54,925 nucleotides of DNA from Methanosarcinaceae archaeon. GTDB lineage: Archaea > Halobacteriota > Methanosarcinia > Methanosarcinales > Methanosarcinaceae. Position 1 is the stretch's first letter. Each line of letters opens with the position of its first letter. Shown one piece after another: positions 1,596 to 12,528 of this stretch. The notes below the pieces were generated by a model. That model did no database searches. It worked only from the letters and a program-made list of their open reading frames with translations, and was not told the DNA's origin. The position numbers and the translations under genes are program-made. Location of the stretch: contig JAUWQD010000014.1 of NCBI GenBank assembly GCA_030611265.1, positions 1-54,925 of the forward strand, read 5' to 3'.

Positions 1596-3653
1596 TTATT
1601 TTCCACCGGTAGTTGACATTACAGCAGAATCCGGCATGAGTTTGTCAAAATATTTGATTACCACACAGGCTTCTGTGCATTTCCCACATCTTGTGCATGA
1701 TTCATCGATCTGCAACCCGCCATCTCCATTGCTGCCATCACTATCGTTGATTCGTATAGCATTTACGGGACAAACTTTGATACATATTCCACATTTTGTA
1801 CACTTGTTCACACGCATCAGTTGTTTTGCACAATCTTTAAAGAGCGCAAGCGCTTCATCTTTTGTATTAGCGTTTACCAATATGCTGCCTGTTGCAAAGA
1901 TATTGATGCTGCCATTATCAGCCTCTACCCGCAGCATGCCAAGTTCTTCCGAATAAACATTTTTCCCAATGATATTCATCACATTTGCAGCATCGCTTGT
2001 GGATACACCGCGCACGATACCTTCAACCGAAAATCCCCTTGCCTTGCATGGTGATACGCCTGATGTCACATGTATGCTGAATGATTCTCCAGTTTCCTTT
2101 TCTACCGGAATTATTCCAATACCAAGTTCCTCTGCAAGTTTGTGCATCTTTGGTGGCAGTTCCTTCCAGCGCCAGAATCCATGTTCTATGAAATCGTTGG
2201 ACAATCCATGATTATGCGCCCACTCAAGCAGGTAGTTGTTCCATCGCTCGTACATCTCCGGGTGCAACTCGCCCATTCTCTTGTATTCGGCAGACAATGC
2301 TGCAGGACACAGGTGGCATCCGACCCTCTCAAATCCCATGTCATATAGGGGATTGTATGCCAATCCGCGCCAGTGAATATACAACCACACCTCGATCGCT
2401 CTCCAATCGCGTATCGGGAATATGTTGAGTTGGTTCGGTACGAAAGGGTTCATCTCAGATGCAGCAACACGGGCGCGGGAGAATGATTCGTGTTTTCGCT
2501 TCCCATCAATCGTCAGGCAGACCGCTCCTGCCTTTGTACATTTTTCAATGACAGCGCTTGCAGGTGCGAGTTTACATACCTTGCAACACCACCTAAAATC
2601 CTTGGCAGGCGGACCAAAATTTTCCAGATGCTCCCAAAAGGCTTCACCTGCATTTGCTTCATGCAAGTCGATGTTGTTCTGTTTGCAGTAATTCCTTGCA
2701 AAGTCGATAGTTTCGGGAAATTCAAGACCTGTGTTTACAAGGAACGCTTTTACGGGTCTTTTCCTGAGTGCACTTTGTGCAAGGTCAAGTACGACAAGAC
2801 TGTCTTTCCCACCACTGAATGAGACATGTACCGGCAGGTTCTGGTGTTGTTTTTGGTTCGCAATCCCTTTTATGGTGTTCATGGCATTTTTGCCAAGTTG
2901 CCTGATGTATGGCAAGTTGGCATTTACGATATCACCCATAGTCGGTATTTTGGAATTCAGGACGGCAGGGTTGCTATCGATCTTCTTGATCTTCAGGACA
3001 GCGCCTTCTGTGGAACTGAGATCGGCACTGTCAGTGTATTCAGTCCCAAAACCGGTGAGATTTCCAGATACAACCAAAACGGGATCGCCTGTTTTGATAT
3101 CGTCTGTGTAACTTTCGATCTGGTCAAAACCAATGTTCTTGCCGCTGAGGTGTCGCTTTGATCGTTTAATTACAATGGTTTTTTTTTCTGTGTGCGCGAG
3201 AAGGACTTTTGCACCTTCCACCATGATATCAAATTTATAATCCATTATGGACATGTCAAAGCGCAAAACCCCGAAATGCAGTCCATCTACGATGACCTCA
3301 TCGGTCTTGTCATCGCCCGGGATCTTGTTCAGCAGGATAATCCTGTCGTCAAGGGGATCGCAGCCGTATGCCTTCACCAGTTGTTCAGCAAGTATCTCAC
3401 GCTCAAATGGTGAACAGAAACGAACATCTGCGGGTTGCGAGAGTTGCAGTCGGGTGCCGTTATTTTTACAGGTAAAACATTGCGGCTCGATGAGTGGAAC
3501 ATTGCATTCATGACACCAGAATATGTAGTCTTTTTCATAGGTAATGGGGCGATTGGTATGCTTTTTAGGGTGCCTGCGCTCTTGCGTGCTCACTGGATAT
3601 TTTGGGCGGGTATTTTTCTTTCTTGTACCAGTTTTGATTTTTTTTGGTTGCAT
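1596..3653 (-). CDS. PAPS reductase-family protein fused to zinc ribbon, PUA-like and 2x[4Fe-4S] ferredoxin domains
   Basis: This 685-residue protein has, in order, a basic N-terminus, a zinc-ribbon-like CxxC pair (C47/C50 and C59/C62), a PUA-like segment (about 75-230), an ATP-pyrophosphatase/PAPS reductase domain starting with the PP-loop SGGKDS (280-285), cysteine motifs RWCCKVCK (about 354) and GCHLCP (about 445), and a C-terminal ferredoxin with two CxxCxxCxxxC clusters. The fusion is typical of methanogenic archaea, where relatives are annotated as phosphoadenosine phosphosulfate reductases. A role in sulfate assimilation or in sulfur transfer/thiolation is possible, and the sequence does not decide between them. 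The start at 3653 has no clear Shine-Dalgarno site. Two palindromic sites lie 118-156 bases upstream. Confidence 0.8.
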   Translation of the reverse strand: MQPKKIKTGTRKKNTRPKYPVSTQERRHPKKHTNRPITYEKDYIFWCHECNVPLIEPQCFTCKNNGTRLQLSQPADVRFCSPFEREILAEQLVKAYGCDPLDDRIILLNKIPGDDKTDEVIVDGLHFGVLRFDMSIMDYKFDIMVEGAKVLLAHTEKKTIVIKRSKRHLSGKNIGFDQIESYTDDIKTGDPVLVVSGNLTGFGTEYTDSADLSSTEGAVLKIKKIDSNPAVLNSKIPTMGDIVNANLPYIRQLGKNAMNTIKGIANQKQHQNLPVHVSFSGGKDSLVVLDLAQSALRKRPVKAFLVNTGLEFPETIDFARNYCKQNNIDLHEANAGEAFWEHLENFGPPAKDFRWCCKVCKLAPASAVIEKCTKAGAVCLTIDGKRKHESFSRARVAASEMNPFVPNQLNIFPIRDWRAIEVWLYIHWRGLAYNPLYDMGFERVGCHLCPAALSAEYKRMGELHPEMYERWNNYLLEWAHNHGLSNDFIEHGFWRWKELPPKMHKLAEELGIGIIPVEKETGESFSIHVTSGVSPCKARGFSVEGIVRGVSTSDAANVMNIIGKNVYSEELGMLRVEADNGSINIFATGSILVNANTKDEALALFKDCAKQLMRVNKCTKCGICIKVCPVNAIRINDSDGSNGDGGLQIDESCTRCGKCTEACVVIKYFDKLMPDSAVMSTTGGK

Positions 3654-3841: not shown

Positions 3842-3979
3842 TCATTTTTTCTTTTTGGTTGCCTTTGCAAATTTTTTCTTTGCATCTTTGCTTCCGGATG
3901 CAGCCAGTTTTTCAAGTTCTTCTAATTTCGCTTTTTTCTTAGCGCTCTTTCTTTGTATATCCTTCTTAGACATTGCCAT
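3842..3979 (-). CDS. 45-residue lysine-rich small protein
   Basis: An open frame of 45 codons starts at ATG 3979, with a second in-frame ATG at 3973. The product is MAMSKKDIQRKSAKKKAK, then LEELEKLAASGSKDA, then a lysine-rich tail ending in KKKK. About 40% of residues are lysine or arginine, and a short acidic-leucine stretch in the middle may be helical. Composition and the clean frame suggest a nucleic-acid- or ribosome-associated peptide, but I recognise no family. There is no convincing Shine-Dalgarno site. It sits on the same strand as its neighbours, between the thioredoxin operon and the PAPS reductase-like gene. Confidence 0.55.
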   Translation of the reverse strand: MAMSKKDIQRKSAKKKAKLEELEKLAASGSKDAKKKFAKATKKKK

Positions 3980-4016: not shown

Positions 4017-4274
4017 CTAGAAATCTGCGCTAAGGACACTGCCCTGTGTGACACCTGTGAAACGTCTTGCTTCAACGCCATCCTTTTCCATTATAAGTGT
4101 TGAAACTACACGAATGCCATACTTTGCTGCAAGTTCCTGATTCTGGTCAACATCCACTTCCTTGATCTCAACCTTGTCGCCAAATTCCTTTTCAAGTTCC
4201 TCAAGGATCGGTTTCTGCATTCTGCACGGACCACACCATGTGGCTGTAAAATCTAATAATATCGGTTTGCCCAT
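4017..4274 (-). CDS. Thioredoxin-like protein with serine at the cis-proline position
   Basis: The 85-residue product begins MGKPILLDF and carries the redox motif ATWCGPCRMQKP (Cys at about 14 and 17), followed by the usual beta-alpha pattern and GIRVVSTLIMEKDG. In canonical thioredoxins the position before Thr in that strand is the conserved cis-proline; here it is serine. The C-terminal helix is also shorter than usual, ending GSVLSADF. I chose the ATG at 4274 because AGGTGAT lies just upstream; a GTG at 4283 is possible. It is the last gene of an apparent operon with a DUF2318 lipoprotein, an ABC ATPase and a permease, so it may serve that complex rather than general disulfide reduction. 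Confidence 0.85.
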   Translation of the reverse strand: MGKPILLDFTATWCGPCRMQKPILEELEKEFGDKVEIKEVDVDQNQELAAKYGIRVVSTLIMEKDGVEARRFTGVTQGSVLSADF

Positions 4275-4327
4275 TTGTATCACCTATTTGTCGTTATTAC
4301 CATTACTGCTACCATTACTGCTACCAT

Positions 4328-4837
4328 CTATCCCCTGATAACCGTGTTCTGATGGGCTGTTATGATATCATTGATATCCATCAGAAGTATCCCTCCGGAT
4401 TCGGTGTAAGGGATATTCTCTTTTGGATAATCCACACATGCGCCCTGTATACCATTTCCTGTTGTTGCATCAAACGTTGTGCCACAGGAATCGCAGACCA
4501 AAACCGCATCATCAAGTGTGAATCCAATTGAACGGCATGGAGGACAGACATTTGACCGAATAACGATCTCAACTCCGAGCACAAATGCCATCACAGCGAT
4601 CTTACCAAGTTCAGTGTTGGTGTTAACCTTAAAGTGTACATTAGTACTATCAGTCACCGCACTTACAGGGATCGACACAGTGTCCTCATTCACCTGTGCA
4701 GGGATCCATGTTGCTTTTACCGGACCTGCTTGTGCCGTTTTGGAATCTTCTCCGACACATCCAAGCCCAAATGCTGCAACAAGTAGCAACACCAATACTA
4801 TTCCAATTGATCTTACATTTTTTAAGTTAATTTTCAT
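4328..4837 (-). CDS. DUF2318 lipoprotein with CxxC metal-binding motifs
   Basis: The 169-residue product has an N-terminal hydrophobic segment (VLVLLLVAAFGLGC) ending in a lipobox-like cysteine, consistent with a lipid-anchored extracellular protein. The C-terminal half carries VCPPCRSIGF, then LVCDSCGTTFD and GIQGACVDYPKE, the diagnostic pattern of DUF2318, which is usually annotated as an Fe-S-containing or iron-transport-associated domain. I chose the ATG at 4837 because AAGGA is about ten bases upstream; an ATG at 4846 lies too close to it. The gene follows the ABC ATPase directly. Bacterial iron-uptake clusters of the P19/FTR1 type carry the same set: DUF2318, FtsX-like permease, ATPase and thioredoxin. 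Confidence 0.85.
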   Translation of the reverse strand: MKINLKNVRSIGIVLVLLLVAAFGLGCVGEDSKTAQAGPVKATWIPAQVNEDTVSIPVSAVTDSTNVHFKVNTNTELGKIAVMAFVLGVEIVIRSNVCPPCRSIGFTLDDAVLVCDSCGTTFDATTGNGIQGACVDYPKENIPYTESGGILLMDINDIITAHQNTVIRG

Positions 4838-4851
4838 ATTAATCATTCCTT

Positions 4852-5529
4852 TTATTCAATGATCTTTCCATCAAGTAAATTGATTATCCTATCAGACTGT
4901 GCACCAAGTTCACTATTATGAGTAACCATAACAACAGTCATCTCACCTGCCAGAGACTTCAAAAGCGAAAGTATCATCTCTCCGGTCTTGCCATCCAGTG
5001 CACCGGTCGGCTCATCCGCAAGCAATATCTTTGGCTTCATAACCAATGCACGTGCGACTGCGACACGCTGTTGCTCGCCTCCGCTAAGTTCATTTGGCTT
5101 ATGTCCGATCCTGTGAGACAATCCCACACGCTCCATCGCTTCTGTCACGCCATCCTGCCCCCTGTCACCTGCAAACACAAGCGGAAGAGCAACATTCTCG
5201 TAAGCCGTAAGCGATGGGATCAGATGGAACTGCTGGAACACAAAACCTGCAGTCCTGCGCCTGAAATTGACCAGTTCTTTCTGGGATTTTTTAGTGATAT
5301 CAACACCATCCAGCAGGATACTACCGCTGCTTGGGTGGTCAAGCATTCCTATCAGGTTCATGAGCGTTGTCTTTCCTGAACCCGAAGGACCCATGATCGA
5401 CACGAACTCACCGCCTTTAATCGTATGGTTGATCCCATGCAGGACTTCAACCTCACTTGACCCGATCCGATATGATTTAGACACGTTTTTCAATTCAACA
5501 TCAACTGTATTTTTTTCATTATCAGACAC
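4852..5529 (-). CDS. ABC transporter ATP-binding protein (LolD/MacB type)
   Basis: The product is a 226-residue ABC ATPase with Walker [11 protein letters not shown]-loop [16 protein letters not shown], signature [15 protein letters not shown] and Walker [13 protein letters not shown], followed by the VTHN switch histidine. The SLTAYENV and PTGALD forms are typical of the LolD/MacB/FtsE branch that works with FtsX-like permeases. The start is the GTG at 5529. It has GGAGGTG eight bases upstream and overlaps the permease stop by eight bases (GTGTCTGA), which shows translational coupling. It should energise the permease encoded at 5522-6727. Confidence 0.9.
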
Positions 5530-6727
5530 TTCGAAGCACCTCCGCAGGGTCAATATTAAGTGCATGCTTTGCCGGTATTACGGATGCTATCATTCCAACA
5601 GTAATCGAAACTCCTGCTGCCGCAGGCAGCAGTATCCATATCGGCGAAGGAGTAACTGAAAGCAATAAGGGTGCTGCAACAAACGAAACAAGTGTTCCGA
5701 GCACAAATCCAAGACTACCACCGATCGCACCGATGATAGCACCTTCAAGCAGCAGCATGGACACTATCTGCCTGTCGCTTGCTCCAACTGCACGCATGAT
5801 ACCTATCTCTTTCAACTTCTCGTTGACCGATGCAAGCATTGTTGACGCAACCGTAAGAGCACTCACAAGCAGCGTAATAATAGAGACTGCCATTGCCGAA
5901 GACTGGGTGCGTTTTATCAGTGCCATCTCACTCTGCACGATCTGGCTCATAGCCCTTGACTCCACGTTTGGAAGAGCGCCTTCGATCTGGCGGCTCATCT
6001 CCTCAACAGGACAATCATTACAAAGCGCCCGCACCTCAATGCTGCTCACTTTTCCTTCATTATCAAACAGGTATTGCGCTGTTTTTAGAGACGTTATGAT
6101 GTATCCATCTTCTGAACCGCCCGTAGTTTCGATCACTGCAACTACATCGCCATCAATCGAATTGTTCCCATTTGTAAGCGTGATGGTGGAACCGGCAACA
6201 AGCCCCAGTGGCTTTGCAATATCAGAACCAAGCATAACTTCCGTTCTCCCACCATCTTCGCCGGATATCCATCTGCCATCTAACTTCCACCATTGCTTGA
6301 TAATAGGTTCTTGTTCCGGGTCAACACCCATCATAATGACGGAAGAGGAAGTGGATAATGAAGAGGATAAAGACGAATTCCCGATCTTCGCGATCCCGTA
6401 CAATCGCGGTGCTACAACTGCAAGATTGGCACTGTTTTCAATGGTGTAGATGTCCGGTAGTTTTGACTCATCAATATAATTCTCGCCTGTCGAAATTGAC
6501 CCGACTGCAGTAGAACCTTCGATCAATGGTATCGAATTTGTTTCCGGTCTTATTATGATATTAGCACCGAATTTACTGGACTCTTCATAAAGGCTATCTG
6601 ATGCTGCAGTGAATGTAGTTATTACCGCAACAATTGCAGAAGCGGCAATAATGACACCCAGCACGCCAACCAGAAGTTTTGTTTTTCTACGAAATATATC
6701 TTTTAAGACAATAGAATGTAATCGCAT
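5522..6727 (-). CDS. ABC transporter permease, FtsX/MacB type
   Basis: This 401-residue membrane protein has the MacB-type architecture. An N-terminal segment (about 17-40) is followed by a large periplasmic-type domain (about 45-275), then three C-terminal transmembrane helices with the family motif KEIGIMRAVGASDRQI (about 305-320). It forms a transporter with the ATPase downstream, probably moving or mechanically acting on an extracytoplasmic substrate rather than importing through a classical channel. It is the first gene of the operon permease-ATPase-DUF2318-thioredoxin. A BlaI-like operator ends only four bases upstream of the ATG, so the divergent repressor probably controls it. Confidence 0.88.
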   Translation of the reverse strand: MRLHSIVLKDIFRRKTKLLVGVLGVIIAASAIVAVITTFTAASDSLYEESSKFGANIIIRPETNSIPLIEGSTAVGSISTGENYIDESKLPDIYTIENSANLAVVAPRLYGIAKIGNSSLSSSLSTSSSVIMMGVDPEQEPIIKQWWKLDGRWISGEDGGRTEVMLGSDIAKPLGLVAGSTITLTNGNNSIDGDVVAVIETTGGSEDGYIITSLKTAQYLFDNEGKVSSIEVRALCNDCPVEEMSRQIEGALPNVESRAMSQIVQSEMALIKRTQSSAMAVSIITLLVSALTVASTMLASVNEKLKEIGIMRAVGASDRQIVSMLLLEGAIIGAIGGSLGFVLGTLVSFVAAPLLLSVTPSPIWILLPAAAGVSITVGMIASVIPAKHALNIDPAEVLRSV

Positions 6728-6730
6728 GAC

Positions 6731-6839
6731 TATACACCTGGTGTAAAGCTATATCAACTTTACGTTTGGTGTAAACATGTCCGATACAACTAATTGTACA
6801 ATACGCGCAAGATTTATATCCATTTACACCAATTGTAAA
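6731..6839. promoter_or_regulatory. Four BlaI/MecI-like operators in the divergent promoter
   Basis: The 114 bases between the permease ATG and the blaI-like ATG contain four dyads built on TACA/TGTA half-sites: TATACACCTGGTGTAAA (6731-6747), TTTACGTTTGGTGTAAA (6759-6775), TACAACTAATTGTA (6785-6798) and TTTACACCAATTGTAAA (6823-6839). BlaI/MecI repressors of bacteria bind TACA-N-TGTA dyads, so these match the regulator encoded alongside. The outer sites abut both start codons, which fits repression of both transcription units. Confidence 0.75.
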
Positions 6840-6841
6840 CC

Positions 6842-7201
6842 ATGGTGAAGATAGATAGGATCAATATCTCGAATGAAGGATTGACCAAGTTCTTTAGCCC
6901 CATTGAAGCACAGATAATGAAAGTGCTGTGGGAAAACAATGAGTTGATGACATCAGAGATCACTAAAAAAACCAACATCCCACTGTCCAGCGTAGCTGGT
7001 ACACTGGATCGGCTTGTAAAAGCTGACTTCGCGCAGCGGAGGGTGGAGAATCAGGGACAGCGTGTCCGATATATATACTCGGCAACCACAACTGCTGATA
7101 ATGCTGCAAATGCGATCACAACCCGCATACTTGACAGTCTCGTTGACACTTTTGGCGCTGTTGCTATCGAGAACTTCTCCAGCTACAAAAAAAGTAAGTG
7201 A
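6842..7201 (+). CDS. BlaI/MecI family transcriptional repressor
   Basis: The 119-residue winged-helix protein has FSPIEAQIMKVLWENNELMTSEI followed by a recognition-helix region PLSSVAGTLDRLVKADFAQR and a wing ending YIYSATTT, matching the Penicillinase_R (BlaI/MecI/CopY) family. The C-terminal half supplies the dimerisation helices. The gene is divergent from the permease operon, and an operator ends three bases before its ATG, so autoregulation is likely. In bacteria such repressors are inactivated by a membrane metalloprotease. Here a membrane HExxH protein is encoded just downstream, which suggests a BlaI/BlaR-like pair. The inducing signal is unknown and could be iron- or redox-related given the target operon. 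Confidence 0.85.
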   Translation: MVKIDRINISNEGLTKFFSPIEAQIMKVLWENNELMTSEITKKTNIPLSSVAGTLDRLVKADFAQRRVENQGQRVRYIYSATTTADNAANAITTRILDSLVDTFGAVAIENFSSYKKSK

Positions 7202-7274: not shown

Positions 7275-7283
7275 TTGAAAGAT

Positions 7284-7961
7284 ATGATATCCATAGCAGA
7301 TGAGATCATATGTTACGCTGAATGCGTCAACAATTCAGACCTTTTACCGTTGATTACGTTCTTGATAGTTGTATCTTTATTTCTTTTCACATTTTATCTA
7401 AAAACCAAAACCCCGATCCATAGAGTAATTTCATTTGCAGGTGCACAACTGTCAATGGTTGGTGCAATCGCCGCAACCTTTTCAACAATGGAATGCAGCC
7501 GCATGCTGACAATTGAGGTTTATCTTGCATACGTGTTGATCTCAACAGGTGTCATGCTGTTTCTGCCTGGATTATATTACAAGATACTTATCAGACGCCA
7601 CAATGCACGTCCGATCTCAGAGATCGTTGACTGGGCAGATGATTTTGTGAACAAGCTTGCCAACAATTCGCAGATATATTATTTTGATTCCGCAATCCCA
7701 AAAGCGTTCGCATCAGGCAAGGCGATCTTTGTATCAGTAGGCATGCTTGAAATTTTTGATCAACAGGAATTAAAAGCCGTGCTCGCCCATGAAGCATGGC
7801 ATCTACGCCACAACAACAAGACTCCGATCTTGCGGCAACTGTCGCTGATGACATTCACAAAATACCGACCTGAACAGGAACTTGAACTGATGGCAGATAG
7901 GTTTGCTGAAGAAATTGTTGGCAAGGGACCACTTGAGTCAGCACGGGCAAAACTCATTTAA
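7284..7961 (+). CDS. Membrane M48/M56-type zinc metalloprotease
   Basis: The product is about 225 residues, with three hydrophobic segments in the first half (about 20-40, 48-70, 78-98). A cytosolic domain follows with the zinc motif HEAWH within LKAVLAHEAWHLRH, and a downstream ELELMADRFAEE that supplies the third, glutamate ligand. This is the M48 (HtpX/Ste24) or M56 (BlaR1) arrangement, but shorter than either and without a penicillin-sensor domain. Its position after a blaI-like gene suggests it relieves repression by cutting the repressor. The start could be ATG 7284 or TTG 7275; neither has a Shine-Dalgarno site. The gene is flanked by inverted copies of the 61-bp element. Confidence 0.75.
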   Translation: MISIADEIICYAECVNNSDLLPLITFLIVVSLFLFTFYLKTKTPIHRVISFAGAQLSMVGAIAATFSTMECSRMLTIEVYLAYVLISTGVMLFLPGLYYKILIRRHNARPISEIVDWADDFVNKLANNSQIYYFDSAIPKAFASGKAIFVSVGMLEIFDQQELKAVLAHEAWHLRHNNKTPILRQLSLMTFTKYRPEQELELMADRFAEEIVGKGPLESARAKLI

Positions 7962-10786: not shown

Positions 10787-11016
10787 GATTCGCACAGTGA
10801 ACAATATCAATTCATTCTGAATAACTGCGTGAACACTCTAACAGATTGTATAGTATGCCCACAATCACACAAAAACCTATTATACGTTAGACTTGTTCAT
10901 TATATGCAGGCAATATTTGCCGCATTTATAAAAAAATATGAGTGCATGGATTGTTACTATAATTCTTATTATCAGTGCTTTAGCCGGCATACCATGTGCT
11001 TATGAGAGAGGAAATT

Positions 11017-12528
11017 ATGAGAGTAAGCAATATACTGATAATTAGTACAATGGTATTAATTGTATTTTCAGGCATGGCATCAGCAGCGATGGACCATAGT
11101 TTTATAGAAGGCCCATTCGAAACTGGACCACAGGTGACGGTAAAATGTATCACTTGTCATCCCGATGCAGCAAATGAGATGCTGGATTCAGCTCACTGGA
11201 ACTGGGTAGGTCCGACACCTGATGTAGTGGGCCACGAAACTGAAACAACCATTGGAAAAGCAAATGTCATTAACAATTATTGTATCGCAGTGCCATCAAA
11301 TGAACCAAGATGTACTTCATGCCATGCAGGATATGGCTGGAAAGACAGCACTTTTGATTTCACAGATAAGACAAATATAGATTGTCTGGTCTGCCACGAT
11401 GGCACAGGAACCTACAAGAAAATACCAACCGGTGCAGGAGCAGTTGATGCCGGAGTAGACCTTGAAGCAGTTGCACAGAGTGTGGGACTACCAGATCGCG
11501 ATAATTGTGGGGGCTGTCACTTTAACGGCGGCGGTGGCGACAATGTAAAGCACGGTGACATGTCTTCGGCATTGAGCACTCCTTCAGAAGATCTTGATGT
11601 GCACATGAGTGGTGCTGATGGCTTATTGTGTCAGGATTGTCACACAACTACTGACCATAAGATCGCAGGATTTAGTACTGCAGTCCCTGTAACCGAAGGT
11701 AGGGTTGACTGTACGGATTGCCATGATGCTGCTCCGCATACCGGACCATTCAAGGAAACACTGGATACACATGCCAATGCAGTAGCATGCCAGACTTGTC
11801 ATATCCCGAAGGTTGCACAGGCTGTACCAACAAAGTTGAACTGGGATTGGTCAACAGCGGGACAGGACATTGACCCATTACCAGTAGATGAGTATGGCAA
11901 AGCAACATACAACAAACTGAAAGGTGACTTTGTATGGGGAATGGATGTAGTACCATCATATGCATGGTACAATGGTAAGATCGAGAGGTACATACTTGGT
12001 GATGAAATAAAATCCGATGAGATGAACAATTTAGTTAAACCGGTCGGAGATATAAGCGATCCGGATTCCAAGATATACCCATTCAAGATACATTCAGCTA
12101 TCCAGATCAGCGATGCAGTAAACAAGTATCTGATTGTACCAAAACTGTTTGGAGAAGGTGGATACTGGAAGACCTTTGATTGGAATGCAGCAGCAGAACT
12201 TGGAATGGAGGCAGTAGATCTGGAATACAGTGGTGAATACGAATGGGTAAACACCGATATGTACATGGCCCTAAATCACCAGGTTGCCCCGAAAGAAGCG
12301 ACTCTGGGTTGCTCTGACTGCCACACAGATGGTGGCAGGATCGACTTTGTTGCACTCGGATACTCAGGCGATCCGGTGAACGCAGGTCCCAGATTTGCAG
12401 CAGAAGAAGAACCTGAAGTTCCTGCTGACATTGTAGAAGAGGAAGCACCTGCAGGTACTCCCGGATTTGAGGTTGCACTTGCTGTTGCAGGATTGCTTGG
12501 CGCAGTTTTGCTTGCAAGACGTGATTAA
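11017..12528 (+). CDS. Secreted octaheme cytochrome c, tetrathionate-reductase (OTR) family, with PGF-CTERM-like anchor
   Basis: The 503-residue product has an N-terminal signal peptide (ILIISTMVLIVFSGMASAA) and eight CxxCH motifs: CITCH, CTSCH, CLVCH, CGGCH, CQDCH, CTDCH, CQTCH and CSDCH. The third, CLVCHDGTGTYKK, resembles the OTR-family site in which a lysine is the distal haem ligand. The tail runs through an acidic, proline-rich spacer to TPGFEVALAVAGLLGAVLLARRD (given here as TPGFEV, a hydrophobic helix, then ARRD), a PGF-CTERM sorting signal for archaeosortase and lipid anchoring. The protein should sit outside the membrane and carry electrons or reduce N/S oxyanions. The substrate is unproven. 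ATG 11017 is chosen because GAGAGG lies six bases upstream; an upstream in-frame ATG at 10996 lacks one. Confidence 0.9.
   Translation: MRVSNILIISTMVLIVFSGMASAAMDHSFIEGPFETGPQVTVKCITCHPDAANEMLDSAHWNWVGPTPDVVGHETETTIGKANVINNYCIAVPSNEPRCTSCHAGYGWKDSTFDFTDKTNIDCLVCHDGTGTYKKIPTGAGAVDAGVDLEAVAQSVGLPDRDNCGGCHFNGGGGDNVKHGDMSSALSTPSEDLDVHMSGADGLLCQDCHTTTDHKIAGFSTAVPVTEGRVDCTDCHDAAPHTGPFKETLDTHANAVACQTCHIPKVAQAVPTKLNWDWSTAGQDIDPLPVDEYGKATYNKLKGDFVWGMDVVPSYAWYNGKIERYILGDEIKSDEMNNLVKPVGDISDPDSKIYPFKIHSAIQISDAVNKYLIVPKLFGEGGYWKTFDWNAAAELGMEAVDLEYSGEYEWVNTDMYMALNHQVAPKEATLGCSDCHTDGGRIDFVALGYSGDPVNAGPRFAAEEEPEVPADIVEEEAPAGTPGFEVALAVAGLLGAVLLARRD

Follow-up and report, generated by a model that had tools for sequence, protein, structure and literature searches.

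A predicted extracytoplasmic soft-metal or thiol-redox module associated with a BlaI-family repressor in Methanosarcinaceae

A stretch of 54,925 nucleotides from the genome of a methane-cycling archaeon of the Methanosarcinaceae (the window) was found to carry an operon for a permease, an ATPase and a DUF2318 lipoprotein, divergent from genes for a BlaI-family repressor and a membrane zinc protease. Gene neighborhood and predicted folds point to a module that handles soft metals or thiol redox outside the cytoplasm and is governed by a proteolytic switch of the BlaR1 kind, a reading to which we give a probability of roughly 0.55. The gene layout, its conservation, the repressor footprints with their loss alongside BlaI and the missing linkage to P19 and FTR1 are seen in the sequences; the Rieske fold and the topology of the protease are model predictions, and from these together we infer repressor cleavage, the metal or thiol signal and the redox task.

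Layout of the locus

The initial annotation had described, in this order, a permease, a LolD-type ATPase, a DUF2318 protein and a thioredoxin, and all four genes were found on the minus strand as described. Its gene set was correct but had missed the protease gene at 7275-7961 and three operator sites. The features of the locus, in window coordinates, are as follows.

5522-6727, minus strand: FtsX/MacB-type (type VII) ABC permease, 401 aa (PF02687 and PF12704)
4852-5529, minus strand, in an open reading frame that opens at 5565: LolD/MacB-type ABC ATPase (PF00005)
4328-4846, minus strand: DUF2318/FtrD-like lipoprotein (PF10080)
4017-4274 (ATG at 4274) or to 4283, minus strand: thioredoxin-like open reading frame (PF00085)
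6842-7201, plus strand: BlaI/CopY-family winged-helix repressor gene (PF03965)
7275-7961, plus strand, likely ATG at 7284: membrane M48/M56-like zinc protease, BlaR1-like
6731-6747: putative operator O1, TATACACCTGGTGTAAA, adjoining the permease start
6759-6775: putative operator O3, TTTACGTTTGGTGTAAA
6823-6839: putative operator O4, TTTACACCAATTGTAAA, between a TATA-like TTTATAT (6813-6819) and the blaI ATG

The blaI-family gene is divergent from the permease operon and is followed on the plus strand by the protease gene. DUF2318 and PF03965 are each represented by a single gene in the host genome (2.86 Mb, 98% complete), the blaI-family gene being the only PF03965 match there. Among named relatives, MAG B4-05 (L074) is the nearest, at 84 to 95% identity.

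BlaI and its operators

The repressor gene passed the Penicillinase_R model (PF03965) with 38.5 bits against a cut-off of 22.6 bits. The TrmB and MarR models were also passed, more weakly, and the NCBIfam BlaI/CopY equivalog cut-offs were missed; a profile search of the PDB returned AF2008 as the sole match. Within the 114-bp intergenic region (6728-6841), three palindromes fit the motif TTTACAnnnnnTGTAAA with no more than one mismatch each. Dinucleotide shuffles gave a mean of 0.04 sites, and none of 500 reached three.

Two to four copies of TTTACAnnnnnTGTAAA were present in the BlaI-linked intergenic regions of 15/15 loci (not all independent), and none was detected in the seven Methanococcoides intergenic regions, which belong to loci that have kept the permease-ATPase-DUF2318 trio and lost blaI. 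Individual sites retained their own signatures (usually TATACA in O1, TTTACG in O3), the O1-O2-O3 spacing was 25 plus 28 bp at the majority of three-site loci, and at most loci only 2 to 3 bp separate O4 from the start of blaI downstream of it. In two ANME-2 genomes the blaI-M48 pair is unlinked, on another contig, yet sites were observed at both loci: two at the trio operon and one directly upstream of blaI, the latter a 17-mer identical to O4 of the window. Genomes with the module have a BlaI orthologue, and none was found in 20 genomes of the family that lack DUF2318. An apparent deletion allele was detected in a genome of the same genus (G121, L219 3514-4926), where the permease, ATPase, DUF2318 and BlaI residues 1 to 74 are missing together and the thioredoxin, a BlaI stump and an intact protease are retained. 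Taken together, the footprints in linked and unlinked loci, their absence without blaI, the co-occurrence and the joint loss in G121 make it very likely that BlaI controls the trio, presumably by binding at these predicted sites, giving strong support to the apparent BlaI control proposed in the initial annotation. Zero-mismatch matches to the motif elsewhere in relatives (e.g., at L135/L136 and L137) lay inside coding sequence and were set aside.

The locus resembles BlaI-BlaR1 and MecI-MecR1 systems in that a PF03965 repressor gene precedes a membrane zinc protease gene and the target operon is divergent; the operator footprints, TACA/TGTA palindromes at both the repressor's own promoter and the target promoter, suggest autoregulation through such half-sites. 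It differs from these systems in having a 5-bp rather than a 2-bp half-site spacer, a target other than a beta-lactamase or penicillin-binding protein and an M48-like protease with three transmembrane helices and no penicillin-binding domain. The BlaI repressor family also includes the copper repressor CopY. The CopY/CopR systems share the repressor family and the TACA/TGTA half-site with the archaeal locus; the archaeal repressor, however, has no cysteine and no CxC metal motif, uses the 5-bp spacer and is accompanied by a separate protease. The description of the repressor as beta-lactam-type is misleading, given the membership of CopY in the family and the lack of a penicillin-binding domain in the protease.

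The membrane protease

Like BlaR1 and MecR1, the product of the gene beside blaI is an integral membrane HExxH zinc protease (H172-H176, three predicted transmembrane helices). It comprises 228 aa and ends after the protease domain, and therefore has no penicillin-binding sensor domain. An AF2 model of middling confidence (pLDDT 77) gave weak fold matches to ZMPSTE24 and Staphylococcus aureus BlaR1 (E about 7e-3), with BlaR1 among the top matches. In 12 sequences from three families, HExxH, C13, C17, M72, C74 and M77 were invariant, as were R50, F54, Q58 and Y86 of the N-terminal half. The positive-inside rule predicts an N-out topology, in which C13, C17 and C74 would face outward and the catalytic C-terminal domain would be cytoplasmic. 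By analogy, the protease and BlaI may form a BlaR1-like relay in which a soft-metal or thiol sensor triggers repressor cleavage. A literature search on archaeal BlaI/M48 pairs returned nothing relevant.

Permease and ATPase

A transmembrane scan of the permease identified one N-terminal helix, a large extracytoplasmic domain and a C-terminal helix bundle. The likely GTG start of the ATPase at 5529 overlaps the permease stop, and the NCBIfam LolD/MacB matches of the ATPase fell below cut-off. The combination of MacB_PCD and FtsX domains with a LolD-type ATPase (PF12704, PF02687 and PF00005) is that of type VII (MacB/LolCE) transporters. Permease identity was 88% to MAG B4-05, of the same genus, and 62 to 68% to other Methanosarcinaceae. 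The trio is conserved across families: it is kept in Methanolobus, Methanosarcina, Methanococcoides and further Methanosarcinaceae and occurs in ANME-2, with more distant versions in Dehalococcoidia/Chloroflexota and one euryarchaeal MAG.

Like MacB and LolCDE, the module has an extracytoplasmic domain after the first transmembrane helix, a C-terminal FtsX bundle, a LolD-like ATPase and a lipoprotein partner; unlike them, it operates without an outer membrane and without MacA or TolC, and its lipoprotein has a predicted Rieske fold (see below). Relatives of MacB take part in the efflux and sensing of antibiotics (PMC5985334), and a MacB-family permease encoded with BlaI and a BlaR1-like protease could be an envelope-stress or antimicrobial exporter, induced when the sensor detects membrane-active compounds. 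We consider this quite improbable, as the locus has neither adaptor nor exit duct, the exporter would have an obligate cysteine-rich Rieske-fold partner, and the sensor is rich in invariant Cys and Met and has no penicillin-binding domain.

The DUF2318 lipoprotein

The lipoprotein scored 36 bits with PF10080, for which the cut-off is 26. Taking CxxC-x13-CxxC-x14/15-C as the Fet-type motif, the protein has this arrangement as CxxC-x13-CxxC-x15-C (C100, C103, C117, C120 and C136), and none of the five cysteines varies across sequences that range from Chloroflexota and Methanosarcinaceae to Methanoperedens-like FTR1-DUF2318 fusions. An AF2 model (pLDDT 81) matched Rieske-type proteins in Foldseek with a best E value of 5e-5, and alignment to 1vm9 with VIA-align gave a Z score of 11.5 and 2.5 A over 105 residues; among the 50 matches listed by Foldseek and VIA-align, all were Rieske-type. 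At the sequence level, comparison with Pfam gave no Rieske match, only zinc-ribbon noise, and a profile search of the PDB returned 2i7f alone, at an E value of 0.9.

Rieske proteins bind a [2Fe-2S] cluster through Cys2His2 ligands. The DUF2318 protein resembles Rieske ferredoxins in the fold of its model but has an all-cysteine motif (Cys-x2-Cys...Cys-x2-Cys and a fifth Cys) in place of Cys2His2 and lacks a sequence match at curated thresholds. Since Cys2His2 is usual in Rieske proteins and five cysteines are present here, the DUF2318 protein is predicted to be a Rieske fold with an all-cysteine site. The signal peptide is of Sec type and, by sequence, without a twin arginine, which makes it unlikely that any cluster is preassembled in the cytoplasm. 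A literature search on FtrD together with Rieske found no paper stating a DUF2318-Rieske relationship; the predicted fold with its five invariant cysteines appears to be new here, as does a protease sensor half whose invariant positions are mainly Cys and Met with a predicted outward orientation.

Relationship to Fet iron uptake

The same CxxC-x13-CxxC-x15-C motif has been reported for Campylobacter jejuni FetA (PMC6083913). In that organism, iron limitation makes fetA-D and fetEF necessary together with FetM and FetP, and fetA-D mutants are iron-sensitive (PMC10783030). The archaeal operon had been likened to the accessory set of P19/FTR1 iron uptake, and the DUF2318 motif and the FetBCD-kind ABC genes bear out part of that likeness; the association with P19 and FTR1 was not borne out. 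Both genes are missing from the window, as had been noted. A search of the host genome located FTR1, unlinked, at two loci on other contigs, and did not find P19. One FTR1 copy is intact, and the second (L003, contig C94:12844-13215) is broken, being shortened and containing an in-frame TAG. P19 was detected in 0/24 genomes of the order by a search that does match the control genome, Haloferax volcanii, and FTR1 is missing from 5/10 genomes with a BlaI-linked module, two of these five being single-contig assemblies.

In FetMP-FetABCDEF of C. jejuni, as in the archaeal module, a five-Cys DUF2318 protein is encoded next to an FtsX-type permease and a LolD-type ATPase, with a thioredoxin nearby. 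The Fet system, however, clusters with FTR1 (FetM), has two permeases (FetB and FetC), a polytopic FetA, membrane-associated or periplasmic thioredoxins and Fur; the archaeal module has one permease, a short lipoprotein and BlaI in place of Fur. In permease trees the archaeal module branched as a separate clade, and the Fet-like permease pairs found in the same order fell outside it.

A sequence scan of the archaeal thioredoxin found no transmembrane helix and no export signal. It adjoins the trio only in the window's own genus (the L155 locus, by tblastn, and the G121 deletion allele, by open reading frame search). A second host copy, beside copZA on another contig, shares 96% identity with the one in the window. 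The window copy has Ser in place of the conserved cis-Pro and lacks four C-terminal residues that its sister copies retain. We regard this cytoplasmic, genus-restricted protein as a recent and possibly decaying passenger. The single permease, the short lipoprotein, the separate permease clade and the cytoplasmic, lineage-specific thioredoxin, like the distribution of P19 and FTR1, do not support reading the module as a P19/FTR1 accessory set.

Methanoperedens-type genomes (L144, L145 and L146) encode FTR1-DUF2318 fusion proteins, and in L146 (4967-9252) genes for two FtsX permeases, an ATPase and a DtxR-like protein come after the fusion, which constitutes a Fet-like locus within the same order. 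This locus, the iron-sensitive fetA-D mutants, the shared cysteine motif and the unlinked FTR1 of the host would fit an accessory role in which DUF2318 and the ABC proteins give redox power or iron handling to FTR1 elsewhere in the genome. Such a role is unlikely in view of the distribution of P19 and FTR1, the single permease in its separate clade and the fact that the locus shows no sign of a regulator of the iron type. The absences of P19 and FTR1 and the separate Fet-like locus suggest instead that the BlaI-linked module is a Fet relative able to work without FTR1 or P19.

Genomic contexts of relatives

A plasmid search with FetA returned mostly EfeU matches, and a query with the DUF2318 domain reached Pelobacter, whose plasmid pPRO1 carries a DUF2318 relative in an operon with CsoR and a heavy-metal ATPase. 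In the f5 genome, blaI-M48 is located beside cupredoxin, DsbD and CcmH genes. At an ANME-2 locus (L134 2497-5588), the gene for a BlaI paralogue (33%) diverges from those for a DsbH-like thioredoxin and DsbD, and three operator copies are present. These Pelobacter, f5 and ANME-2 neighborhoods suggest metal or thiol redox.

On contig C88 of the host (L156 9574-9817), a BlaI-type operator with one mismatch precedes the copZ-copA operon, placed between copZ and a TATA-like box. This site, the TACA/TGTA half-sites common to CopY and BlaI (PMC7253601), the Pelobacter heavy-metal operon and the Cys/Met sensor cluster of the protease would be consistent with BlaI acting as an archaeal functional analogue of CopY, governing a copper or soft-metal regulon to which the module and, in this genus, copZA would belong. 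The probability of this is low: the copZ site decays to two to three mismatches in same-genus relatives and is absent from other genera, and a reversed-pattern control indicated that one-mismatch matches in the genome are mostly due to chance. As the site is unconserved outside the genus, copZA was kept only as a weak lead for regulon membership.

Contexts diverge in other relatives, with iron loci in the Methanoperedens type and sulfur/cysteine and Fe-S operons in Dehalococcoidia. In the latter (L086-L104), the trio lies inside a cysteine/Fe-S cluster, among genes for a Cys/Met-metabolism PLP enzyme, a hexapeptide transferase, a PALP enzyme, a NifS-like aminotransferase and NifU, and its DUF2318 protein reaches 56% identity with that of the archaea. 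Those neighbors could indicate a module for cysteine or sulfur export or one related to Fe-S clusters, but they are not conserved in archaea, and a Sec-exported protein is unlikely to receive a cluster from cytoplasmic NifU; this was the least probable of the readings weighed.

Proposed mechanism

In the favored reading, of a soft-metal or thiol-redox module, BlaI would bind the three 17-bp palindromes and repress both the blaI-protease and the permease-ATPase-DUF2318 operons. A signal at the outer Cys/Met cluster, either thiol oxidation or a soft metal (for example Cu(I)), would switch on the protease, which would cut BlaI and derepress the operon, in the manner of BlaR1-BlaI except for the sensor. 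The type VII ABC complex might then work mechanically, on the outside of the membrane, upon or by way of the lipid-anchored Rieske-fold protein, whose five invariant cysteines may bind a metal center or cycle between dithiol and disulfide. Its most likely task would be to handle metals (Fe/Cu) or thiol redox outside the cytoplasm, with kinship to Fet iron uptake but no dependence on it.

Bacteria use the BlaI-BlaR1 type of switch against penicillin. To our knowledge, archaea have neither murein nor a penicillin target. We tentatively suggest, with the odds somewhat against so specific a version, that in these murein-less archaea the BlaI/M48 pair serves as a surface metal or thiol sensor in which an outward Cys/Met site replaces the beta-lactam receptor, and that it controls a type VII ABC motor servicing an all-Cys Rieske-fold lipoprotein, distinct from iron uptake. 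Organisms without a beta-lactam target would then possess a proteolytic switch of the BlaR1-BlaI type that carries a candidate sensor site for metals or thiols. If true, such a surface redox system would also explain the role of DUF2318 and FetBCD in bacterial Fet systems, for which the stand-alone archaeal module with its predicted all-Cys Rieske-like fold offers a testable model free of FTR1 and P19. The operator motif allows the regulon to be read, and tests are feasible because several cultivated strains of Methanolobus, Methanosarcina and Methanococcoides hold the module, with and without BlaI.

Flanking genes

A lysine-rich open reading frame of about 45 aa (3842-3979, minus strand) lies directly downstream of the thioredoxin, and a PAPS-reductase-like protein with a C-terminal 4Fe-4S domain (PRK13795 type; 1596-3653, minus strand) is encoded just downstream of the operon. 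Beyond the protease gene, an octaheme cytochrome gene occupies 10996-12528 on the plus strand; its product belongs to the tetrathionate-reductase family (562 bits with TIGR04315) and carries a PGF-CTERM surface anchor.
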